Assembly (NCBI GenBank): GCA_016215105.1
Contig: JACRLJ010000107.1
Coordinates: 1 to 45,154 of the forward strand
Direction of reading: 5' to 3'
DNA: 45,154 nt
Origin: Candidatus Hydrogenedentota bacterium
GTDB lineage: Bacteria > Hydrogenedentota > Hydrogenedentia > Hydrogenedentales > SLHB01
The notes below the pieces were generated by a model. That model saw only the letters and a list, made by a program, of their open reading frames with translations, made no database searches and had not been told where the DNA came from. Made by a program: the position numbers and the translations under genes. Each line of letters starts with the position of its first letter. Within the stretch, counting starts at the first letter, position 1. This document shows positions 25,008 to 36,742 of the stretch, piece by piece.

Positions 25008-27644
25008 TCATCCGAGCAACGCTTTGACAACTTCCGGCGCCGTTGCGATGGCCTCACCCAACTTCTCGGGGTTCTTGCCGCCGGCTTGGGCCATATCGGG
25101 CCGGCCGCCACCGCCGCCACCCACGATGGGCGCCAACTGCTTCACGATGTCCCCCGCCTTGATCTTGCCGACCAAGTCCTTCGATACGGATACGCAGAGA
25201 GACGCTTTTCCTTCCGCGGCGCTGCCGAGCACCAACACGCCCGACGTCAGCTTGTCACGGAGCGAATCCAGGACCATGCGCAGACCCGCCGCGTCCTGGC
25301 CTTCGACCTCGCTGGCGAGCAACTTGACACCGTCAATCTCCTGTACGCGCGACATATAATCAACCGAACCGCCCGTCGCCGCGGCTTGTTTCCATTTCTG
25401 GACTTCCCGTCCGAGGCGTTTGTTCTCGTCGATCAAAGCCTGTACACGCGAAGGCAACTCGTCCAGGCCGGCGTTGAGCAACTGGGCCGCCGTGGACAGG
25501 TTGCGCTCGCGGGACTGCAGGGCCTCGACGCAACGCTCACCGCAAACCGCTTCGATACGGCGAACTCCAGAGGATATCGCCGACTCGCTCATGATCTTGA
25601 AATAGCCGATCACGCCGGTGCGTGGCACGTGGACGCCACCGCACAATTCCATGCTGATATCCCCCACGCGCACGACACGCACCACCTCGCCGTATTTCTC
25701 GCCGAACAGCGCCATCGCCCCCGCCGACCGCGCATCCGCTATGGCCATCTGATCGATGGTCACCGGAGTGTCGGTGCGAATAAACTGGTTCACCATGCGC
25801 TCGATATCCTGCAAGCGGCTGGCTTCAATGCCCTCGAAATGGGTAAAGTCGAAACGCAGACGATCCGGTTCCACCCTCGAACCGGCCTGATGCACGTGAT
25901 CGCCGAGGGTCTCCTGCAGCGCGGCCTGCAGCAGGTGCGTGGCCGTGTGATGATTCATCGTGGCTTCGCGGGCGCGTCTGTCCACCTGCGCGTTCACCGT
26001 GTCGCCCACCTTGAGCGCGCCGCGCGTAACGCGGGCGTAATGCAGGGTCATTTTGCCGACGAGCGCCTTCGCGACGGTGACGTGCGCGTTGCCGTCCACG
26101 GCGTCCAAGACGCCAAGGTCGCCGACCTGCCCGCCCGATTCCGCGTAGAACGGCGTGACGTCAAGGACGATCTCGCCTTCTTCGCCCGATTTGAGGGAGT
26201 CCACGCGTTGACCGTTCTGCATGATGCCGACGATTTTGGAGTGATGTTCGAGCGCATCGTAGCCCACGAACTTCGTATCTCCAACTTCGTCGTGCAACAC
26301 GCGGTACGCGCGTCCGATGGCTTCTTCGCCCGTACCGGTCCACGCGCTGCGGGCCTGCTCACGCTGACGCTTCATGGCCGAGTCAAACCCCTCACGGTCC
26401 ACCTGATAACCGCGGTCCGTGGCGATGTCCGTGGCAAGATCAAGCGGGAATCCATAGGTGTCGTGCATGCGGAACAGATCATCACCGGGCACGAGTTTGC
26501 GCCCGTCCTTGTCCAAGCCTTGGAATATTTCTTCAAGCATGTCCATGCCGCGCGCGAGGGTACTGCGGAAGCGCTCCTCTTCCGTGAGGATGATCTTTTC
26601 AATCTGCACCCGGTTCTCGCTCAGTTCGGGATACTGATGGCTCATGCGGTCCACCACCGTCTGAACCAACTGATACAGGAACGGTTTGTCGAGCCCGAGT
26701 TCACGCCCGAATCGCGCCGCGCGGCGCAGCAACCGCCGCTCGACGTAGCCCCGTCCGTCGTTCGCCGGCAACACGCCATCGGCAATCATGAAGGACAGCG
26801 CCCGCGCGTGGTCGGCGATCACACGAAACGGAGTGGGATTCTTCTTGTACGACACTTTGCACAGCGATTCGGTGGCTTCGATGATCGGCATGATGCCGTC
26901 GGTGTCGAAGACCGTTTCCTTGTCTTGGAGAATCGCGGCGAGCCGTTCCAGGCCCATGCCGGTGTCGATACCCCGGTTCTTCAGCGGCAGCCGCGCTCCG
27001 TCCAACTGCTCGTCAAATTGCGGAAAGACCAGGTTCCAATATTCCATGAACCGGTCCGTCGGATCGGTACCGGGCGCTTCGTCCGGATGCGTCGCGTTAC
27101 GCGCGGGATTGCGGTCCAGATGCAGTTCGGAACACGGACCACACGCTCCCGTATCGCCCGCCGGACCCCAGAAATTGTCTTTCTTGCCCAGCCGGGCGAT
27201 CTTACGGACGGGAATTCCAATTTCCTTTTCCCAGATCGCATACGCCTCGTCATCGTCCTCGTACACCGACACCCAGATATGATCAGGGTTGATCTTGACG
27301 ACCTGCGTCGAATACTCCCAGGCCCACTGTATGGCTTCGCGTTTGAAATAGTCGCCAAACGAAAAGTTGCCCAGCATCTCGAAGAACGTCATGTGACGCG
27401 CGGTCTTGCCGACTTCGTCCAAGTCATTGGCTTTCCCGCCTGCCCGCAGACACTTCTGGGACGTTGTGGCCCGGCGGTACGGAACCGGGTCGGCGGCGTA
27501 ATACGGCTTGAACTGCACCATCCCCGCGCTGGTAAACAACAAGGTCGGATCATTGCTCGGAACGATGGTGTCGCTCCGTTCGATCACGTGTCCGCGCTGA
27601 CGGAAGAAATCCAGATAACTGGCCCGAATATCGTCTATTTTCAC
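25008..27644 (-). CDS. alaS: Alanyl-tRNA synthetase
   Basis: Charges tRNA-Ala. 878 residues, standard length. The start at 27644 follows GGAGA at six bases. The class II core shows SYLDFFRQRGH, NDPTLLFTSAGMVQFKPYY and RHMTFFEMLGNFSFGDYFK, and the ATP site is near GDTGACGPCSELHLD. The editing domain has the zinc motif NHHTATHLLQAAL and LCGGVHVPRTG; the C-Ala domain ends GGGGGGRPDMAQAGGKNPEK. First gene of alaS-ruvX-mltG. No anomaly. It uses TGA as stop, which also argues against UGA recoding in this genome. Confidence 0.98.
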   Translation of the reverse strand: MKIDDIRASYLDFFRQRGHVIERSDTIVPSNDPTLLFTSAGMVQFKPYYAADPVPYRRATTSQKCLRAGGKANDLDEVGKTARHMTFFEMLGNFSFGDYFKREAIQWAWEYSTQVVKINPDHIWVSVYEDDDEAYAIWEKEIGIPVRKIARLGKKDNFWGPAGDTGACGPCSELHLDRNPARNATHPDEAPGTDPTDRFMEYWNLVFPQFDEQLDGARLPLKNRGIDTGMGLERLAAILQDKETVFDTDGIMPIIEATESLCKVSYKKNPTPFRVIADHARALSFMIADGVLPANDGRGYVERRLLRRAARFGRELGLDKPFLYQLVQTVVDRMSHQYPELSENRVQIEKIILTEEERFRSTLARGMDMLEEIFQGLDKDGRKLVPGDDLFRMHDTYGFPLDLATDIATDRGYQVDREGFDSAMKRQREQARSAWTGTGEEAIGRAYRVLHDEVGDTKFVGYDALEHHSKIVGIMQNGQRVDSLKSGEEGEIVLDVTPFYAESGGQVGDLGVLDAVDGNAHVTVAKALVGKMTLHYARVTRGALKVGDTVNAQVDRRAREATMNHHTATHLLQAALQETLGDHVHQAGSRVEPDRLRFDFTHFEGIEASRLQDIERMVNQFIRTDTPVTIDQMAIADARSAGAMALFGEKYGEVVRVVRVGDISMELCGGVHVPRTGVIGYFKIMSESAISSGVRRIEAVCGERCVEALQSRERNLSTAAQLLNAGLDELPSRVQALIDENKRLGREVQKWKQAAATGGSVDYMSRVQEIDGVKLLASEVEGQDAAGLRMVLDSLRDKLTSGVLVLGSAAEGKASLCVSVSKDLVGKIKAGDIVKQLAPIVGGGGGGRPDMAQAGGKNPEKLGEAIATAPEVVKALLG

Positions 27645-27793
27645 CGGTGGTCTCCGTTAGAGTTCACTTGGATAGGAGGCAGAAGTCTAGCAAATTCAGC
27701 GGGTTTCGTGCAAAAAGTAACCACTCAGGCGCGATTCAACGCCCCGTCGACAGCCCGCGCTCATCGAGCGTGGGCGTACTCGGACGTCCGACT

Positions 27794-27829
27794 TGTCAGA
27801 CCTGTCCGATCTGTCCGACCTGTCCGCGG
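27794..27829. repeat. Four tandem 9-mers TGTCCGAYC
   Basis: TGTCAGACC, TGTCCGATC, TGTCCGACC and TGTCCGCGG follow each other directly, about 70 bases before the alpha-galactosidase start in the divergent gap with alaS. It could be a slipped simple repeat or a set of regulator sites; only the repetition itself is visible. Confidence 0.6.
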
Positions 27830-27901
27830 TCCCAAAAAGTATGCGCACTACCTCTCGATCTGATACGCTGCTTCGTTCAAAGCTAGAGGATATCAAACAA
27901 T

Positions 27902-30413: not shown

Positions 30414-30555
30414 AGTTGATCTGTGCCTCCAAGGCGAACGCGGCAGGCCTTCGCGCCCATCATGGGCTTTCCGACCGGCTTTGAAAACTTGCGCGGCCAT
30501 AGGCTCCTTTTGCTATCCTATTCGGATCGGGTTGGCGCAGTTTGAGGGTGAGTGC

Positions 30556-30762
30556 ATGTCCGTAGTCAAAGTCCACGATGGCGTGGCATTGATCGAAGTG
30601 AACGATCCGCTTGTTTTGACGGAAATTGAGAGCGACGCAGCGCTTCAGCCCTTCCTGGGGGAGCGGTTATCCGACCAACGGATCGCCGTACAGCCCCAAG
30701 CGTTGCCTGAGGTATTGAAACGGCTTCAATCGCTGGGCCACTTGCCACAGGTGCTGGAATGA
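30556..30762 (+). CDS. Small protein coupled to the XPB-associated gene
   Basis: A 68-residue protein starting MSVVKVHDGVALIEVNDPLV, with GAGGG about eight bases before the ATG. Its stop overlaps the next start (ATGA), so the two are translated together. The line LTEIESDAALQPFLGERLSD and RIAVQPQALPEVLKRLQSLG resembles the extreme C-terminal module that I associate with long XPB-associated (Helicase_C_3) proteins of Chloroflexi-type bacteria. Here it would be a free-standing subunit. The resemblance is from memory and not computed. Role otherwise unknown. Confidence 0.6.
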   Translation: MSVVKVHDGVALIEVNDPLVLTEIESDAALQPFLGERLSDQRIAVQPQALPEVLKRLQSLGHLPQVLE

Positions 30763-33269
30763 ACCAGCGATTCAGCATACGCGAGTGTCTCCATGGCTAT
30801 TCGAACGATACCTTGGGCGCAATCTGCGATTACTGGAAGCTCGCGGCGACTTCTAAGCCAAGCCGGCTCAAGGCGATAGAGCGTGTACTGGGCGACCCGT
30901 TCCACGTCAAGAGTGTCCTGTCGGCCTTGGACCCCGTATCGGTCCGAATACTGAAACGGACCGTTGAGCGGGGGACTATTCCGGCGGCGGACCTGCTCAG
31001 TGTCCCCGGACTTTTCGGTACCCATCAGCCCAACCAGGCGCTTCAGCGGCTCGCGCAGTCTGGGATGATCCTGGTCTGTCCGAGCGACCGTAACGGCGTG
31101 TTCTCGCTGGGTATGCTTTCCCGGGAACGTCTGAACGGGAACCGTGGCCCCGATCTCATCGTGCCGGGAACCGTGGAAACTTCCCTACCGGAACCTCCGC
31201 CTTTGGGACTGGGATTGCCGGTGAGCGCCGACCCTCCGCAGACGCTTGATGCTCCGGGTCCCCACCGCATCACGCAGACGATGCTGGAAGTCTTCCGTCT
31301 GGTGGACCTGGTTGAGCCCCGCATTACGGGCGCGGGTGAGCTGCATCGCAATGATGAGGTACGTCTTAACGAATTACGCCGCGAATCCGGCCTCTCGCGC
31401 GAGTTGGTGAACCTGGGTGTCATGATGGCGCGCCAGATGCGGTGTGTCGTCGTCGAAAACCGGAAGCTGGTCACGTGCGCGCGCGCCGACCTCTGGACCG
31501 AGCAGACCCGCGCGCGGCGGATGCGCGACCTGTTCTGTGCGTATGTCGCGTCACCGGGACTGGCTGACCTCCAACTCTTCTTTCCAGACATGCTGGCCGC
31601 ATTCGAGGAACACCTCCCTGTCGATTCGGTCCGGCGGAATTATCACCGGGAATTGGCAGTGTCCATCCTTCGCGTGTCACCCGAGGGCGCCTGGCATCCT
31701 GTCGGTGGACTTGCCGACGCGATCGAGCAGTCGGACCGCAACGTTCTATTTGTCGAAGAGCGGTGGCGCTCTATTCTCGCGCATGCGCAGGACTCCGGTC
31801 CGGCGTGGCAGGAGCGCGCCTGGCAGGCGGGAGAAAAACGCCTTTTCACTTGGCTCGTCCAGTCGTTCTTGGCGGATTTAGGGATGGTGGAACTGGGCGG
31901 TCAAGGGCAGCTCTTTCGTCTTAGTCCCATCGGACGCTTTGTCTTGGGCGTGGGACCGGAGCCGGAGGACGCGCACCTGAACGGTGAGAGCAGCCTAACG
32001 GTGCAGCCAGACTTTGAGGTGATCGTCTACTTAGACCGGTGCGCCCCGTCTTTGCAACGGAAACTGTCCCGCTTCTGTGACCGGCGCCGGGCTGGCGCCG
32101 CCAGCACGTACGTCCTTACGGAACAGAGTATCTATCGCGGAGCGGGATCAGGGATTCCTCCTCGAGAGGCGCTTCAGTTGCTCTCCGACTCTTCGAGTCA
32201 TCCGTTACCCGACAACGTGCGCGAGCAGGTGGCGGCGTGGCAACGGAAGATGGAGTCGATAACCCTTCACCGCCGATGCACGTTGGTGGAATTCCTGGAC
32301 GCTGCGAAACGGGACTCGGCCATCGCGAGCTATCCCAACGCGCGAGCGATCGGGGATCGTTTTCTGCTTGTCACCGCTGACCTGGCGCCAGCCGCGGCGC
32401 CGCGTATTCACTACGGGGCGCCACTCAAACCTGCGCTGCGTCAGGAAGAGGGTCTCCAACTGCGTCTGCCTTGGGACGAGGTCGATCTATTTGCGCGCAA
32501 GCGGCTGGCCGAGATTGGCGAGTTGCGCGAAAACGATTCCCAGGACCTCTGCCTGCGCCTGGAGCGTGGCAAGACGGGCCGTCCGGAAGACTGGAACTTG
32601 ATCGCCGCGCAACTTGAGTCGCTTACGGCCGAACCGCTGCGGGCGCGTTACCGGCTTGCCTTGCGCGCCTGGAGTGGTGAACTCGGTCCAGCCACTGCGG
32701 GGCCCGCGACGCTCTTGCGCTTCAACGACCTCGACACCTGCGAAGCGGTTCTCGACTTCCCGGAAGTGGCCGAATATGTCGAAGGGCGGGTCGGGCTTTA
32801 TACGCTCCTGATTAGCAAAGGAAAGCTCGCGCACGTCAAAAAGGCGCTGCGAGCGCACGGCATCGCCATCGAGGCAGGCGCTGCGTTGGCGGACCCGCTT
32901 CCGCCGGAGAAATGGGTCGAGCATTGGGCCGAGCGGCGAAAGAGTTTCGACGACGGGAATCGGGAGAACCAAACGGTATCTCCCGGCGTGAAGACCGTCA
33001 CCGAGTACCACGACGCGCTTCCGATGTATTCGCCGCGCATCGTTTGTGAGTTGCTGGCGGACGCGATTGCCCGGCGCAAACCCGCGCTGATCGAGTATCG
33101 GCCGACCTGGAGCAAACAAGCGAGTGTCCGCCGTGTCGACCCGGTTTCGCTGGATGTTTCGGCCCCCTCCCCGTTTCTCAGCGCCTTCTGTCACACCGCG
33201 CACTCGGCGCGCACGTTCCAACTGGCGCGCATTCAGGGCATCCGCATCCTGGAAGACGATTCGTATTAG
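30759..33269 (+). CDS. Large Helicase_C_3 (XPB/Ssl2 N-terminal-like) protein with WYL-like end
   Basis: An 836-residue cytoplasmic protein. The central block at about residues 410-505 (SLTVQPDFEVIVYLDRCAPS, RRRAGAASTYVLTEQSIYRG, HPLPDNVREQVAAWQRKMES) matches the XPB/Ssl2-like N-terminal domain called Helicase_C_3. The N-terminal 250 residues look like tandem winged helices (SLSRELVNLGVMMARQMRC, ILKRTVERGTIPAADLLSVP). The last 80 (ALIEYRPTWSKQASVRRVDP, FQLARIQGIRILEDDSY) resemble a WYL ligand-binding domain. No Walker A or DEAD/DEAH motif is present, and no XPB helicase gene is adjacent. Family members usually accompany an XPB-type helicase in DNA repair, so it may act with one encoded elsewhere. 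Confidence 0.8.
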   Translation: MNQRFSIRECLHGYSNDTLGAICDYWKLAATSKPSRLKAIERVLGDPFHVKSVLSALDPVSVRILKRTVERGTIPAADLLSVPGLFGTHQPNQALQRLAQSGMILVCPSDRNGVFSLGMLSRERLNGNRGPDLIVPGTVETSLPEPPPLGLGLPVSADPPQTLDAPGPHRITQTMLEVFRLVDLVEPRITGAGELHRNDEVRLNELRRESGLSRELVNLGVMMARQMRCVVVENRKLVTCARADLWTEQTRARRMRDLFCAYVASPGLADLQLFFPDMLAAFEEHLPVDSVRRNYHRELAVSILRVSPEGAWHPVGGLADAIEQSDRNVLFVEERWRSILAHAQDSGPAWQERAWQAGEKRLFTWLVQSFLADLGMVELGGQGQLFRLSPIGRFVLGVGPEPEDAHLNGESSLTVQPDFEVIVYLDRCAPSLQRKLSRFCDRRRAGAASTYVLTEQSIYRGAGSGIPPREALQLLSDSSSHPLPDNVREQVAAWQRKMESITLHRRCTLVEFLDAAKRDSAIASYPNARAIGDRFLLVTADLAPAAAPRIHYGAPLKPALRQEEGLQLRLPWDEVDLFARKRLAEIGELRENDSQDLCLRLERGKTGRPEDWNLIAAQLESLTAEPLRARYRLALRAWSGELGPATAGPATLLRFNDLDTCEAVLDFPEVAEYVEGRVGLYTLLISKGKLAHVKKALRAHGIAIEAGAALADPLPPEKWVEHWAERRKSFDDGNRENQTVSPGVKTVTEYHDALPMYSPRIVCELLADAIARRKPALIEYRPTWSKQASVRRVDPVSLDVSAPSPFLSAFCHTAHSARTFQLARIQGIRILEDDSY

Positions 33270-33275
33270 TTCGGG

Positions 33276-35288
33276 CTAATTGCTATAAAGCGACTCGATC
33301 GCGACGAGACAGCGGGCGGCCGTAACTGGAGCGGAATACAGCGGCGGATTGCGGTCAGTGGCGGGCGCTTCTGACAGGGTGCGTCTCAGCGCCGTAACCG
33401 CGACCGGCCGCAGGCGCTCCAGCCATTCCGTGCGGGCCTTGCACACCATGGCGAGGTCGCTTATGGCGAAAATCGTCCTCTCACCCTCCAACGCCGGAAG
33501 CGCCTTCAACGCCGCAGTGATTGGCGCATCCCAGCGCGCGTCGTCGAGCGGAATGACCTCAGCGGGCCAGTATAGAAGCGGGTTCTCAATCTTCCAGTTC
33601 TGAGAGGCGTCGAGGAAGTGATACTGGGCCGCGGCTTTCATCTGCCGCATACGTTCGGTCCATTCGGGTCTGTCATACCCCAGGTACTGCGCGATATGAA
33701 GCGCGGCGCCTATTCCTCCGACGATACCCGCCAATTGCGCATCGGTTCGCCCGTCGCGCCAATACGCGTCCACAAAGAACGGAAGCGGCTCTCCGCTGCG
33801 TTCGTCCACCCATCCGGTTAGGAAATCGCCCGCCAGGTCGGTCGCCGCCCAGACTTTCTTCAGGTATTCCAAGCGCGCATTCTGGTCCAGCGATTCCGCG
33901 TGACGCCAAAATGACCACACCATCCAGGCGGAGGCCTCGACATCCAGGATGAGATGCGGCAACCCCTCTACGCGATTCCCATACATCGCCGCAGGCAGTG
34001 AGCCCGCCGGTTTTCCCGGTCCGCTGGTCTTGCGAAGGCACTCGATATAGAACAACGTATGTTTTTCCGCCAGCTCCGAATACCCGGCGAGGTCAAACGC
34101 GAGAGTAATCCACGCGCCCTCTTTGGCCCGGTCGAACACAAACGGCGCTTGAGTTGGCGAGGCGCTGACCACGGCGCCGCTCTCGCGGTCCCGCGCGTTG
34201 GCCAGAACAACCAAGCACTGCTTGCCCAGCTCGATTAGCGCGGGATCGGCTTGGGACGGAAGCCGGGCCTCTTCGAGCCACTTGGCCCAATGTTTTCGGT
34301 TGTTCTGGAGCAATGACTCGTATTTGGCGGACGCGGCTGAATCCAGCGCGTTCCGTACCTCGGCTACGTTCATACCAAATCCAACGAGTACCGTTACCGA
34401 AAACTCGGGAGCCCCCGATCGGGGGACGTTCCAAAAGAGTGCGGAATCGCACTGGCCCACAGCGCTGCGTTGACCGGCGAGTTCACCGGCGTCCGCCTGG
34501 CGAAGCGCCGATGACGCCTCTGACTTCTCGCCGCAGTGATATTCTGACGGCGACTCGACGCCACGGTACCCAATCCACACCCCATCGGAAAACGAGGACC
34601 ACTCGGACGCCGAAGAAGAATTCGCCGCCAGGCGTCGGACGTGTTCCCAGTCGCTCTTGCCGGGGTCTTTCGGACGGAAATGGTAAATGGTTCCGCTTTC
34701 CGTGTCGGCGAACGAGGCGAAATCACTGATGGATTCCAGCCCCCAACCTGCCGTTGGCAGTTCTGGAACGAGAAGCGTGCAGGGGGAAAAACCGGCATAC
34801 CAATACACCTGGGTCAGGTCACCGGTTCCGTATGCGCTCAGGTGCGACACGAGCACATTCTTATCCGGACACACGAACAGGGCGTGCTTGGCGACAAGAC
34901 CCGTGCCCGGCAGCGTCAACAACGTTTCGGCCACGTTCGGAGTATGGGTAAGATAGCGTGTCGAGGTCTCCCAGGGCTGGCCCGCGAGCCACAGTGTCTT
35001 ATCCTCAATTCGCAGTCCCCACATCAGTCCGCCGCGCTCGCTCGAGCCGGTGGCGCCACGCGGTGAGAATGCTTGGACCCTCAATTGGTTGTGGTAGCTT
35101 GGGCTCGGCCACTGGCACGCCGTGACTTGCCCGTATGCGGTGACGTAGACGGTGAGGTCGCTGTTACCCGAAACGATCAAGTTATTGCCGGCGCTGAGAG
35201 CCGGGCTAGCCGCCGCGTACTCCGGTTCGGGAGGGCGAACGTCAGCAGCCAAGAGTGCGCTGATTGCAATCGTCAAGGCGATAGTCAT
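33276..35288 (-). CDS. Secreted six-hairpin-glycosidase-like protein
   Basis: A 670-residue protein with N-terminal signal peptide (MTIALTIAISALLAADV). The first 320 residues are beta-rich (SGNSDLTVYVTAYGQVTACQ, MWGLRIEDKTLWLAGQPWE) and resemble the N-terminal sandwich of GH15-type glucoamylases. The second half is helical with LPAAMYGNRVEGLPHLILDV, ASAWMVWSFWRHAESLDQNA and PFFVDAYWRDGRTDAQLAG, as in an (alpha/alpha)6 barrel. I cannot assign catalytic residues securely; a Glu or Asp in the PAEVIPLDDARWD stretch is a candidate. The start overlaps the stop of the upstream gene (ATGA). It is convergent with the Helicase_C_3 gene with only six bases between. Confidence 0.62.
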   Translation of the reverse strand: MTIALTIAISALLAADVRPPEPEYAAASPALSAGNNLIVSGNSDLTVYVTAYGQVTACQWPSPSYHNQLRVQAFSPRGATGSSERGGLMWGLRIEDKTLWLAGQPWETSTRYLTHTPNVAETLLTLPGTGLVAKHALFVCPDKNVLVSHLSAYGTGDLTQVYWYAGFSPCTLLVPELPTAGWGLESISDFASFADTESGTIYHFRPKDPGKSDWEHVRRLAANSSSASEWSSFSDGVWIGYRGVESPSEYHCGEKSEASSALRQADAGELAGQRSAVGQCDSALFWNVPRSGAPEFSVTVLVGFGMNVAEVRNALDSAASAKYESLLQNNRKHWAKWLEEARLPSQADPALIELGKQCLVVLANARDRESGAVVSASPTQAPFVFDRAKEGAWITLAFDLAGYSELAEKHTLFYIECLRKTSGPGKPAGSLPAAMYGNRVEGLPHLILDVEASAWMVWSFWRHAESLDQNARLEYLKKVWAATDLAGDFLTGWVDERSGEPLPFFVDAYWRDGRTDAQLAGIVGGIGAALHIAQYLGYDRPEWTERMRQMKAAAQYHFLDASQNWKIENPLLYWPAEVIPLDDARWDAPITAALKALPALEGERTIFAISDLAMVCKARTEWLERLRPVAVTALRRTLSEAPATDRNPPLYSAPVTAARCLVAIESLYSN

Positions 35289-36742
35289 TGGACTGGTCTT
35301 GCCATACGAGTGGGAGAACGCGCCAGATAGCCATTGAATTCCAGCATGGCTCCTTGGTTCCGCGCTTCCAGTTGAAGTGTTCCCAAGTAGGCAATAGCCT
35401 TTGCAAACGGAAGGACATCCTTGTCAACGTCCGCCTTGTTCATGCCCGGGAACAATTCATGCGCGCCGGCATTCTCAACAACTTCTTCTGCAGCGGACGA
35501 TAGCTTTTTCCAATTCAAACGGACGGCGAGATCGGCGTCTACGTTGTCGTCGCTCTTCAGTTTTCCCGCAAGAACCGCCATAAGCGGTTCGTTGGTGGCA
35601 GCAATCCACGTCGTACCGCTCCGGCAAAGGCATAGATTCAGCGAATTCCCCAGAAGCGGCGCAGCAACGCCGCGCTGACCGTTCCAATCGTAGGGCGTTG
35701 GCGCGAGGGGCGCCAGTACCGGCGCGAGTGGATGAGTTTTCGCCTGGGGCGACGCGTTCCTCAGCAGCAGCGCCAAAGACGGGACTGGGACCGCCTCTGA
35801 CGTGTCAATCGAAGTCAACGCCAAAGAACACTCTTCCATCTGCTCGTCCCAGTCCGCAGCCAAGGAACCTAAGGCCCATCGCTGCCCGAGCGAAGTGGCG
35901 AAAGCGCCAATGGCGTCGCGCCCTGGTAGTCCGTGCAGCGGCTCGACGAACAACTCGAGTACGGCCCGGATGTCAGTCCAACGCGGGGCCGAAATCGAAC
36001 ACAGAGGATCATTCGGCCAGGCGTTGGCCAAGGTCAACGGCGACTTTCGCGTCGTGGTCTTGACTCGGAGTTGGCCCTCGATTGGCCAGCCATCCCGTGC
36101 CCGAAAGCGGATCAACGCATCGTGCGCGGACGGGAGAAGAACGCGCAGTTCGTCTCGCCCGTTCGATTGCGCGAGACGGGGCGCGGGCGCCCTCAAGGCG
36201 GCGCGTACATAATCGCTGGAGGTCGATACGATCAGAAACCCCTCGCGCCAACCATAGGCATACTCACTATAGCGCCCAACGCCGTCGGCGTCCGTCGGAT
36301 ATCCTAGCGCGGCGCGTAGCCGGCTTGCGGTGCGCAGAAGCAAACCGGGATAGACGCAGACACCCAAACCATCTGGAGATCTTGCGGCCAGGAACCGGTG
36401 GCCCATCCAGGTGGACCAACGCGCTGGAAAGGGCCGGATTCCTACAGTCTTTCGAATGTGAAGAATCGTCGAGGCGTCAGGACTGGGAATCTCCTGGCAG
36501 AGGCTCTTCCAGGCGTCCGATTGTTCGAGGCCATACCAGACAGCGCCGAAATCCTCCGCCGCGAAGATGTAGCGCGCGTCTTCGGGACAGAATCCGTCGG
36601 CACTGGTTTTCGTGAGTGAACGATCCCACACAGTAAGCGCCACGAGCAGGACAGTTGTCAGGAGAAGCGGGATCCAACGCCATCCAATAGCGTGGCGCCG
36701 GGAACGTCGTCCGTGTGGACGTTGTGAGCCGTTTTCCGTCAT
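35285..36742 (-). CDS. Membrane-anchored protein of unknown function
   Basis: A 485-residue protein, not recognised with certainty. A basic N-terminus (GRRSRRHAIGWRW) and one membrane span (IPLLLTTVLLVALTVW) predict a type II orientation with a large periplasmic domain. The line AEDFGAVWYGLEQSDAWKSL, TWMGHRFLAARSPDGLGVCV and GWREGFLIVSTSSDYVRAAL, with later TTWIAATNEPLMAVLAGKL, has the feel of DUF3352-type proteins, but this is a guess. The gene's TGA overlaps the ATG of the six-hairpin-like gene, so both products are made together. No good ribosome site precedes the chosen ATG. Confidence 0.6.
   Translation of the reverse strand: MTENGSQRPHGRRSRRHAIGWRWIPLLLTTVLLVALTVWDRSLTKTSADGFCPEDARYIFAAEDFGAVWYGLEQSDAWKSLCQEIPSPDASTILHIRKTVGIRPFPARWSTWMGHRFLAARSPDGLGVCVYPGLLLRTASRLRAALGYPTDADGVGRYSEYAYGWREGFLIVSTSSDYVRAALRAPAPRLAQSNGRDELRVLLPSAHDALIRFRARDGWPIEGQLRVKTTTRKSPLTLANAWPNDPLCSISAPRWTDIRAVLELFVEPLHGLPGRDAIGAFATSLGQRWALGSLAADWDEQMEECSLALTSIDTSEAVPVPSLALLLRNASPQAKTHPLAPVLAPLAPTPYDWNGQRGVAAPLLGNSLNLCLCRSGTTWIAATNEPLMAVLAGKLKSDDNVDADLAVRLNWKKLSSAAEEVVENAGAHELFPGMNKADVDKDVLPFAKAIAYLGTLQLEARNQGAMLEFNGYLARSPTRMARPVQ

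Follow-up and report, generated by a model that had tools for sequence, protein, structure and literature searches.

A coupled gene pair in one Candidatus Hydrogenedentota family with likeness to the p52 and p8 subunits of TFIIH

On the plus strand of a 45,154-nucleotide stretch of Candidatus Hydrogenedentota DNA, which we call the window, an open reading frame of 68 amino acids runs into one of 836 amino acids. The larger product combines a Helicase_C_3 domain with a C-terminal WYL domain, and there is no ATPase gene beside the pair. What do these two proteins do, and does a helicase encoded elsewhere take part?

The gene pair and its distribution

The coordinates, the lengths and the ATGA coupling that an earlier note on this DNA had given for the pair are exact when read against the sequence itself (Table 1), and the 4-bp overlap of the small and the large gene is found in 13 of 16 readable homologous loci. 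The same note had seen a two-gene unit without an adjoining ATPase, and we agree: the large protein has no Walker A motif, and among its 15 homologues neither Walker A nor DExH ATPase motifs were found apart from chance DEVD/DELQ occurrences.

Upstream of the pair, a consensus scan revealed no canonical promoter, while a TATRCT-like box can be recognised by eye 20-40 nt 5′ of the small gene in most relatives. No common regulatory palindrome is evident 5′ of the pair, only the -10-like boxes.

Table 1. Features of the gene pair in window coordinates; residue numbers are those of the large protein
Feature	Position	Strand	Basis
Possible -10 box (TATCCT) of the operon	30514..30519	+	By eye; weak
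GAGGG ribosome-binding site of the small gene	30544..30548	+	Sequence itself
Small gene (68 aa) for a free-standing p8-like module	30556..30762	+	Co-occurrence, dN/dS, fold, Foldseek
ATGA overlap, translational coupling	30759..30762	+	Sequence; same 4-bp overlap in relatives
Large gene (836 aa) for a p52-like, WYL-bearing protein	30759..33269	+	Foldseek; no Walker A
N-terminal helical region, residues 7-395, like p52 NTD and MD1	30777..31943	+	AF2; homologues that match the Tfb2 HMM
Helicase_C_3 / clutch domain 1, residues 413-500	31995..32258	+	Pfam PF13625
Module after clutch 1, residues 508-538, at the position of the p8-binding p52 C-terminal domain	32280..32372	+	AF2 (b-a-b-b)
Second, diverged clutch-like domain, residues 560-639	32436..32675	+	AF2 (b-b-a-b-b-a-a); hhalign
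p8-like module 2 (residues 651-699), closest of the copies to the small protein	32709..32855	+	hhalign
WYL domain, residues 763-829	33045..33245	+	Pfam PF13280

Around the pair, the window has alaS, an alpha-galactosidase-like gene and others that match no family. Beyond the pair, no neighbour is common to all homologous loci, with a few recurring in subsets of genomes; we therefore regard the pair as a unit of its own. Two minor features of the surroundings are recorded here. The minus-strand genes at 33276-35288 and 35285-36742 overlap and encode proteins of 670 and 485 amino acids, both without a Pfam match, and a 925-amino-acid open frame (25086-27863, plus strand) lies antisense to alaS, probably as a by-product of G+C-rich codon use.

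A search of 386 genomes places the pair in one Candidatus Hydrogenedentota family only. Full-length relatives of the large protein are present in 17 of the 25 genomes of the window's own family, and the search of the order's remaining families and of distant bacteria gave none. In all 17 genomes that have either gene (17/17) the small gene adjoins the large one, always directly upstream, and nowhere was it found as a solo gene. It is also the better conserved of the two, with 54-69% identity of the small protein to the window's copy compared to 36-45% for the large protein. Its dN/dS of about 0.08-0.2 among the closest pairs corresponds to strong purifying selection. A chance open reading frame and a leader peptide were considered for the small gene, and both are ruled out by the 17/17 conservation together with the dN/dS. 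Conservation of the neighbourhood, which the earlier note had made one test of its proposal, is thus confirmed within this family, in which the small gene is kept beside the large gene, and does not extend to Helicase_C_3 genes generally.

Likeness of the two proteins to p52 and p8

Both domains that had been assigned to the large protein exceed their Pfam cut-offs: Helicase_C_3 (PF13625) at residues 413-514 with an E value of 5.8e-13, and the C-terminal WYL domain (PF13280) at residues 763-829 with an E value of 2.1e-12 (47.3 bits compared to a cut-off of 21.8). The N-terminus has no Pfam match to a DNA-binding family. In the AF2 model (pLDDT 81.7) the N-terminal half is largely helical and is followed by a clutch-type domain, a b-a-b-b module, a second clutch-like domain, a b-a-b-b-a module and the WYL domain. 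Compared directly by profile, the module after clutch 1 is weakly similar to the others. Clutch 2 with its module matches a paralogue from the phylum (hhalign 69%, E 4.6e-5), and the module at residues 651-699 matches the small family (hhalign 53%, E 1.4e-4).

A Foldseek search of the large-protein model against 350,542 PDB chains returned p52/Tfb2 from human, yeast and Chaetomium at ranks 1-14 (best E 1.1e-8, about 550 columns), followed by the WYL proteins PafBC, CapW, BrxR and DriD. Over the whole chain these p52 matches superpose poorly (global TM-score 0.16-0.38, rmsd 12-18 A), and the agreement is one of ordered local structure; we attribute the low values to differing domain orientations, the order of the domains being the same.

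Sequence profiles lead to the same proteins. At E<=10, a profile built from 33 related bacterial proteins retrieved 13 PDB sequences, each of which is XPB or Tfb2/p52, with best E values of 4.8e-11 for XPB, 3.9e-7 for Tfb2, 7.3e-7 for C. thermophilum p52 and 1.6e-4 for human p52. Pfam Tfb2 is matched by 17 of the 33 profile members (best E 7e-6). For the large homologues, Tfb2 (PF03849) is matched weakly by 5 of 15 (best 20.3 bits, E 2.9e-4); no match reaches the cut-off of 34.5 bits, and the window's own large protein has none. These matches start up to about 50 residues before Helicase_C_3. When the Tfb2 HMM was run on six-frame translations of 68 genomes, most matches were these bacterial p52-like proteins.

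The p52 clutch and the XPB N-terminal domain share one common fold, form a pseudo-symmetric dimer and have T119 in common as a conserved residue (Greber 2019, PMC6422496). In the family alignment, Thr454, kept in 14 of 15 homologues, aligns with human XPB T119. The resemblance of the large protein to p52 in fold and sequence is thus well supported. Both follow the same order, from a helical N-terminus through a clutch to a p8-type module; the large protein differs in being bacterial and in adding the diverged clutch/module unit and the WYL domain. A further difference from TFIIH is that p44/Ssl1 (PF04056) has no match in the genome and that the sequences stay under the Pfam Tfb2 and Tfb5 cut-offs.

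The WYL part retrieves PafBC, PafC, BrxR and CapW in the PDB sequence search. Across the 15 homologues the W and Y of the motif are lost, and R818 and R829 of the region are invariant. The ssDNA-binding arginine pair of PafB is partly kept, position 821 being K, Q or R and position 824 being R or Q (Q in four homologues).

The small protein has a b-a-b-b-a fold in its AF2 model (pLDDT 80.5). Foldseek ranks 1 and 2 among the 350,542 chains are yeast Tfb5, once with Tfb2 (3dom_B) and once in TFIIH (5oqj_5), at a probability of 0.99 and an E value of about 0.1. Run against 1348 foreign ORFs, the small-family HMM gave 6 matches, all of them to Helicase_C_3 proteins (five p52-like proteins and one XPB) and all located just after the clutch. 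The bacterial post-clutch module and the small family match at 97% in hhalign. Accordingly, the small protein represents, detached and as a protein of its own, the module that p52-like proteins and XPB carry after the clutch. The earlier note had called it a detached copy of the terminal module: the HMM and hhalign bear out the detached copy, and its closest counterpart in the large protein is internal (residues about 651-699) rather than terminal.

That the small protein is specifically p8-like is suggestive. With a Tfb5 profile of two sequences only, the bacterial post-clutch module matches Tfb5 at 58% in hhalign, with 0 of 200 shuffles as good, and the small family matches it directly at 5%, with 1 of 200 shuffles as good. 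Pfam Tfb5 (PF06331) gives E 0.094 for one member of the small family, the cut-off not being reached, and the Tfb5 HMM over 68 genomes gives only background (E 1.15 in one genome) without singling out the small gene. The PDB sequence search with the small family returned two weak, irrelevant matches only, and Pfam, NCBIfam and PADLOC have no match to the window's small protein. By p8-like we mean the fold, the size, the partner and the module, not proven orthology, and the same module may have become detached in parallel. The nearest solved fold is that of p8/Tfb5 (about 70 amino acids), the small protein being likewise a separate protein with the b-a-b-b-a fold of the module and its gene being coupled to a p52-type gene. 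The small partner had been thought to be without a described precedent; p8/Tfb5, the partner of p52, is just such a detached module.

XPB and p52-like genes in and beyond the phylum

An XPB encoded at a distance, as had been suggested, does exist: a 570-amino-acid protein (L001:1444-3153) on contig C52 of the same genome. XPB is full-length in 15 of the 17 pair-bearing genomes and a fragment in one more, and in Hydrogenedentota the pair does not adjoin it. A partner of the Bax1 type had also been envisaged; Bax1 nuclease (PF05626) is missing from the genome. The archaeal XPB-Bax1 system is comparable in having a partner protein for XPB, but Bax1, a nuclease, belongs to another family (DUF790). 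Bacterial XPB (Rad25-like) itself shares with the large protein a Helicase_C_3 N-terminal domain and the module that follows; RecA-like domains and a Walker motif are missing from the large protein.

The whole Hydrogenedentota order also carries a single-unit p52-like paralogue of 614-660 amino acids (L002:76-1953, L021-L033), unlinked to XPB. Like p52, this paralogue has one clutch and ends at the p8-like module. In two genomes of family f1 that are at least 93% complete (G008 and G011), both genes of the pair are missing and XPB and the single-unit paralogue are kept, an apparent joint loss or absence.

Outside the phylum, a Helicase_C_3 protein occurs in 41 of 318 genomes. We chose 20 foreign regions, 12 of them for holding two close matches, and in those 12 loci (L091-L102) a p52-like gene lies next to XPB on the same strand, a count that is selected and not a frequency. 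In four of them (L095, L099, L100 and L101) the two genes overlap by 4 bp. Tsukamurella and Actinomyces records likewise have an annotated XPB within a few kilobases of the p52-like gene. In M. tuberculosis, Rv0862c next to Rv0861c is presumably a further case of a 'helicase-associated domain-containing' (PF13625) protein beside XPB. These p52-like genes beside XPB are candidate XPB regulators beyond the window's family.

The PF13625 proteins beside XPB in Actinobacteria and others resemble the large protein in having no ATPase, a Helicase_C_3 domain with the post-clutch module and, sometimes, a WYL domain, which in one XPB-adjacent protein (L091) is also C-terminal. They differ in that XPB is adjacent, compared to remote for the window, and that the module is fused: no separate p8-like ORFs were found beside the p52-like genes of other phyla. 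A 99-amino-acid ORF upstream of the Actinomyces p52-like gene was considered as a p8 and rejected, its product being hydrophobic and unrelated.

Possible function and its alternatives

We propose, with a probability of roughly 0.55, that the pair is a bacterial counterpart of the TFIIH p52-p8 subcomplex that regulates XPB and carries a WYL sensor. In TFIIH, the clutch of p52 serves to recruit XPB, whose ATPase p52 and p8 together stimulate (PMC7708078). The large protein would work like p52 by virtue of a helical/winged-helix N-terminus, a clutch with the XPB N-terminal-domain fold and a p8-type module, and would add to this plan the diverged clutch/module unit and the WYL sensor. As p8 does, the small protein would pair with one p8-like module of the large protein and stabilise that module. 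Through its clutch the complex would dock on the N-terminal domain of the remotely encoded XPB and set its ATPase or translocase activity, and the WYL domain may tie this control to DNA damage, signalled by a nucleic acid or a nucleotide. We read the WYL domain as a sensor because the WYL domains of PafBC bind ssDNA (PMC11804915). In short, we infer the heterodimer, the XPB docking, the WYL ligand and the repair role of the pair.

Several findings speak against the p52-p8 reading, namely the low global TM-scores, the Pfam Tfb2 and Tfb5 cut-offs that are not reached, the Foldseek E value of only about 0.09 for Tfb5, the missing p44/Ssl1, the lack of linkage between the pair and XPB in the phylum and the presence of a second p52-like protein. 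The last two findings would also fit a self-sufficient complex in which the large protein's two clutches bind one another in the manner of p52 and XPB, a fused mimic acting without XPB. The second clutch could in that case occupy the first, so that XPB would have nowhere to dock, and the protein of the L002 type would be there to serve XPB. The tandem clutch/module units agree with such an arrangement, but the second unit is strongly diverged (hhalign of clutch 1 with clutch 2, 2%) and the single-unit relatives are operon partners of XPB, so that we think it rather improbable.

The absence of linkage to XPB could also reflect a stand-alone transcription regulator, with N-terminal helical domains that bind a promoter, a WYL domain that senses ssDNA as in PafBC or DriD, a small protein that acts as a dimerisation subunit, and no XPB. 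Such DNA-damage regulators share the C-terminal WYL with the large protein, whose WYL domain is over the Pfam cut-off, and PafBC, CapW, BrxR and DriD come after p52 in the fold search. We nonetheless consider this unlikely: every better fold match is p52, the large protein outside its WYL domain is p52-like in fold, the N-terminus matches no DNA-binding family, and the W and Y of the motif are lost with the two PafB arginines partly kept. The match of the small-family HMM to the module in XPB itself (G045, E 4.9e-4, and the XPB of L095) raises another idea, that the small protein mimics the module after the XPB N-terminal domain and competes directly on XPB, with the large protein merely restraining it; 17/17 co-occurrence and coupling with the large gene favour an obligate pair instead and make this very unlikely. 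Membership in a phage-defence system, to which the PADLOC WYL models matching the large protein might point, is hardly credible, since the match is confined to the generic WYL part and the loci have no conserved neighbours beyond the pair, those in the window being alaS, the alpha-galactosidase-like gene and the no-family genes.

The p52-p8 reading bears on how bacterial XPB is thought to work. Bacterial XPB was proposed to act probably alone, since no other TFIIH subunit homologues were then known in bacteria (Balasingham 2012, PMC3353954), and its role is termed 'elusive' in a 2026 review (PMC13024598). In the open-licence literature we found no description of bacterial p52, Tfb2 or p8 homologues, which does not prove priority. 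More broadly, at somewhat less than even odds, bacteria of many lineages may possess a TFIIH-like XPB-p52 module encoded by adjacent or overlapping genes, with a p8-like subunit and a WYL domain in one Hydrogenedentota family; regulation of XPB by p52-p8 would then be older than eukaryotic TFIIH or parallel to it. The p52-like and p8-like pair, together with the XPB/p52-like gene pairs elsewhere, makes the lone action of bacterial XPB directly testable. It would also offer a two- or three-protein system for studying the control of XPB by p52 and p8, a mechanism affected in xeroderma pigmentosum and trichothiodystrophy.

Finally, the residues of human XPB that follow its N-terminal domain, where the DRD-like region starts, line up with the post-clutch module of the bacterial p52-like proteins, which suggests that the XPB DRD, the p52 CTD and p8 belong to one module family.
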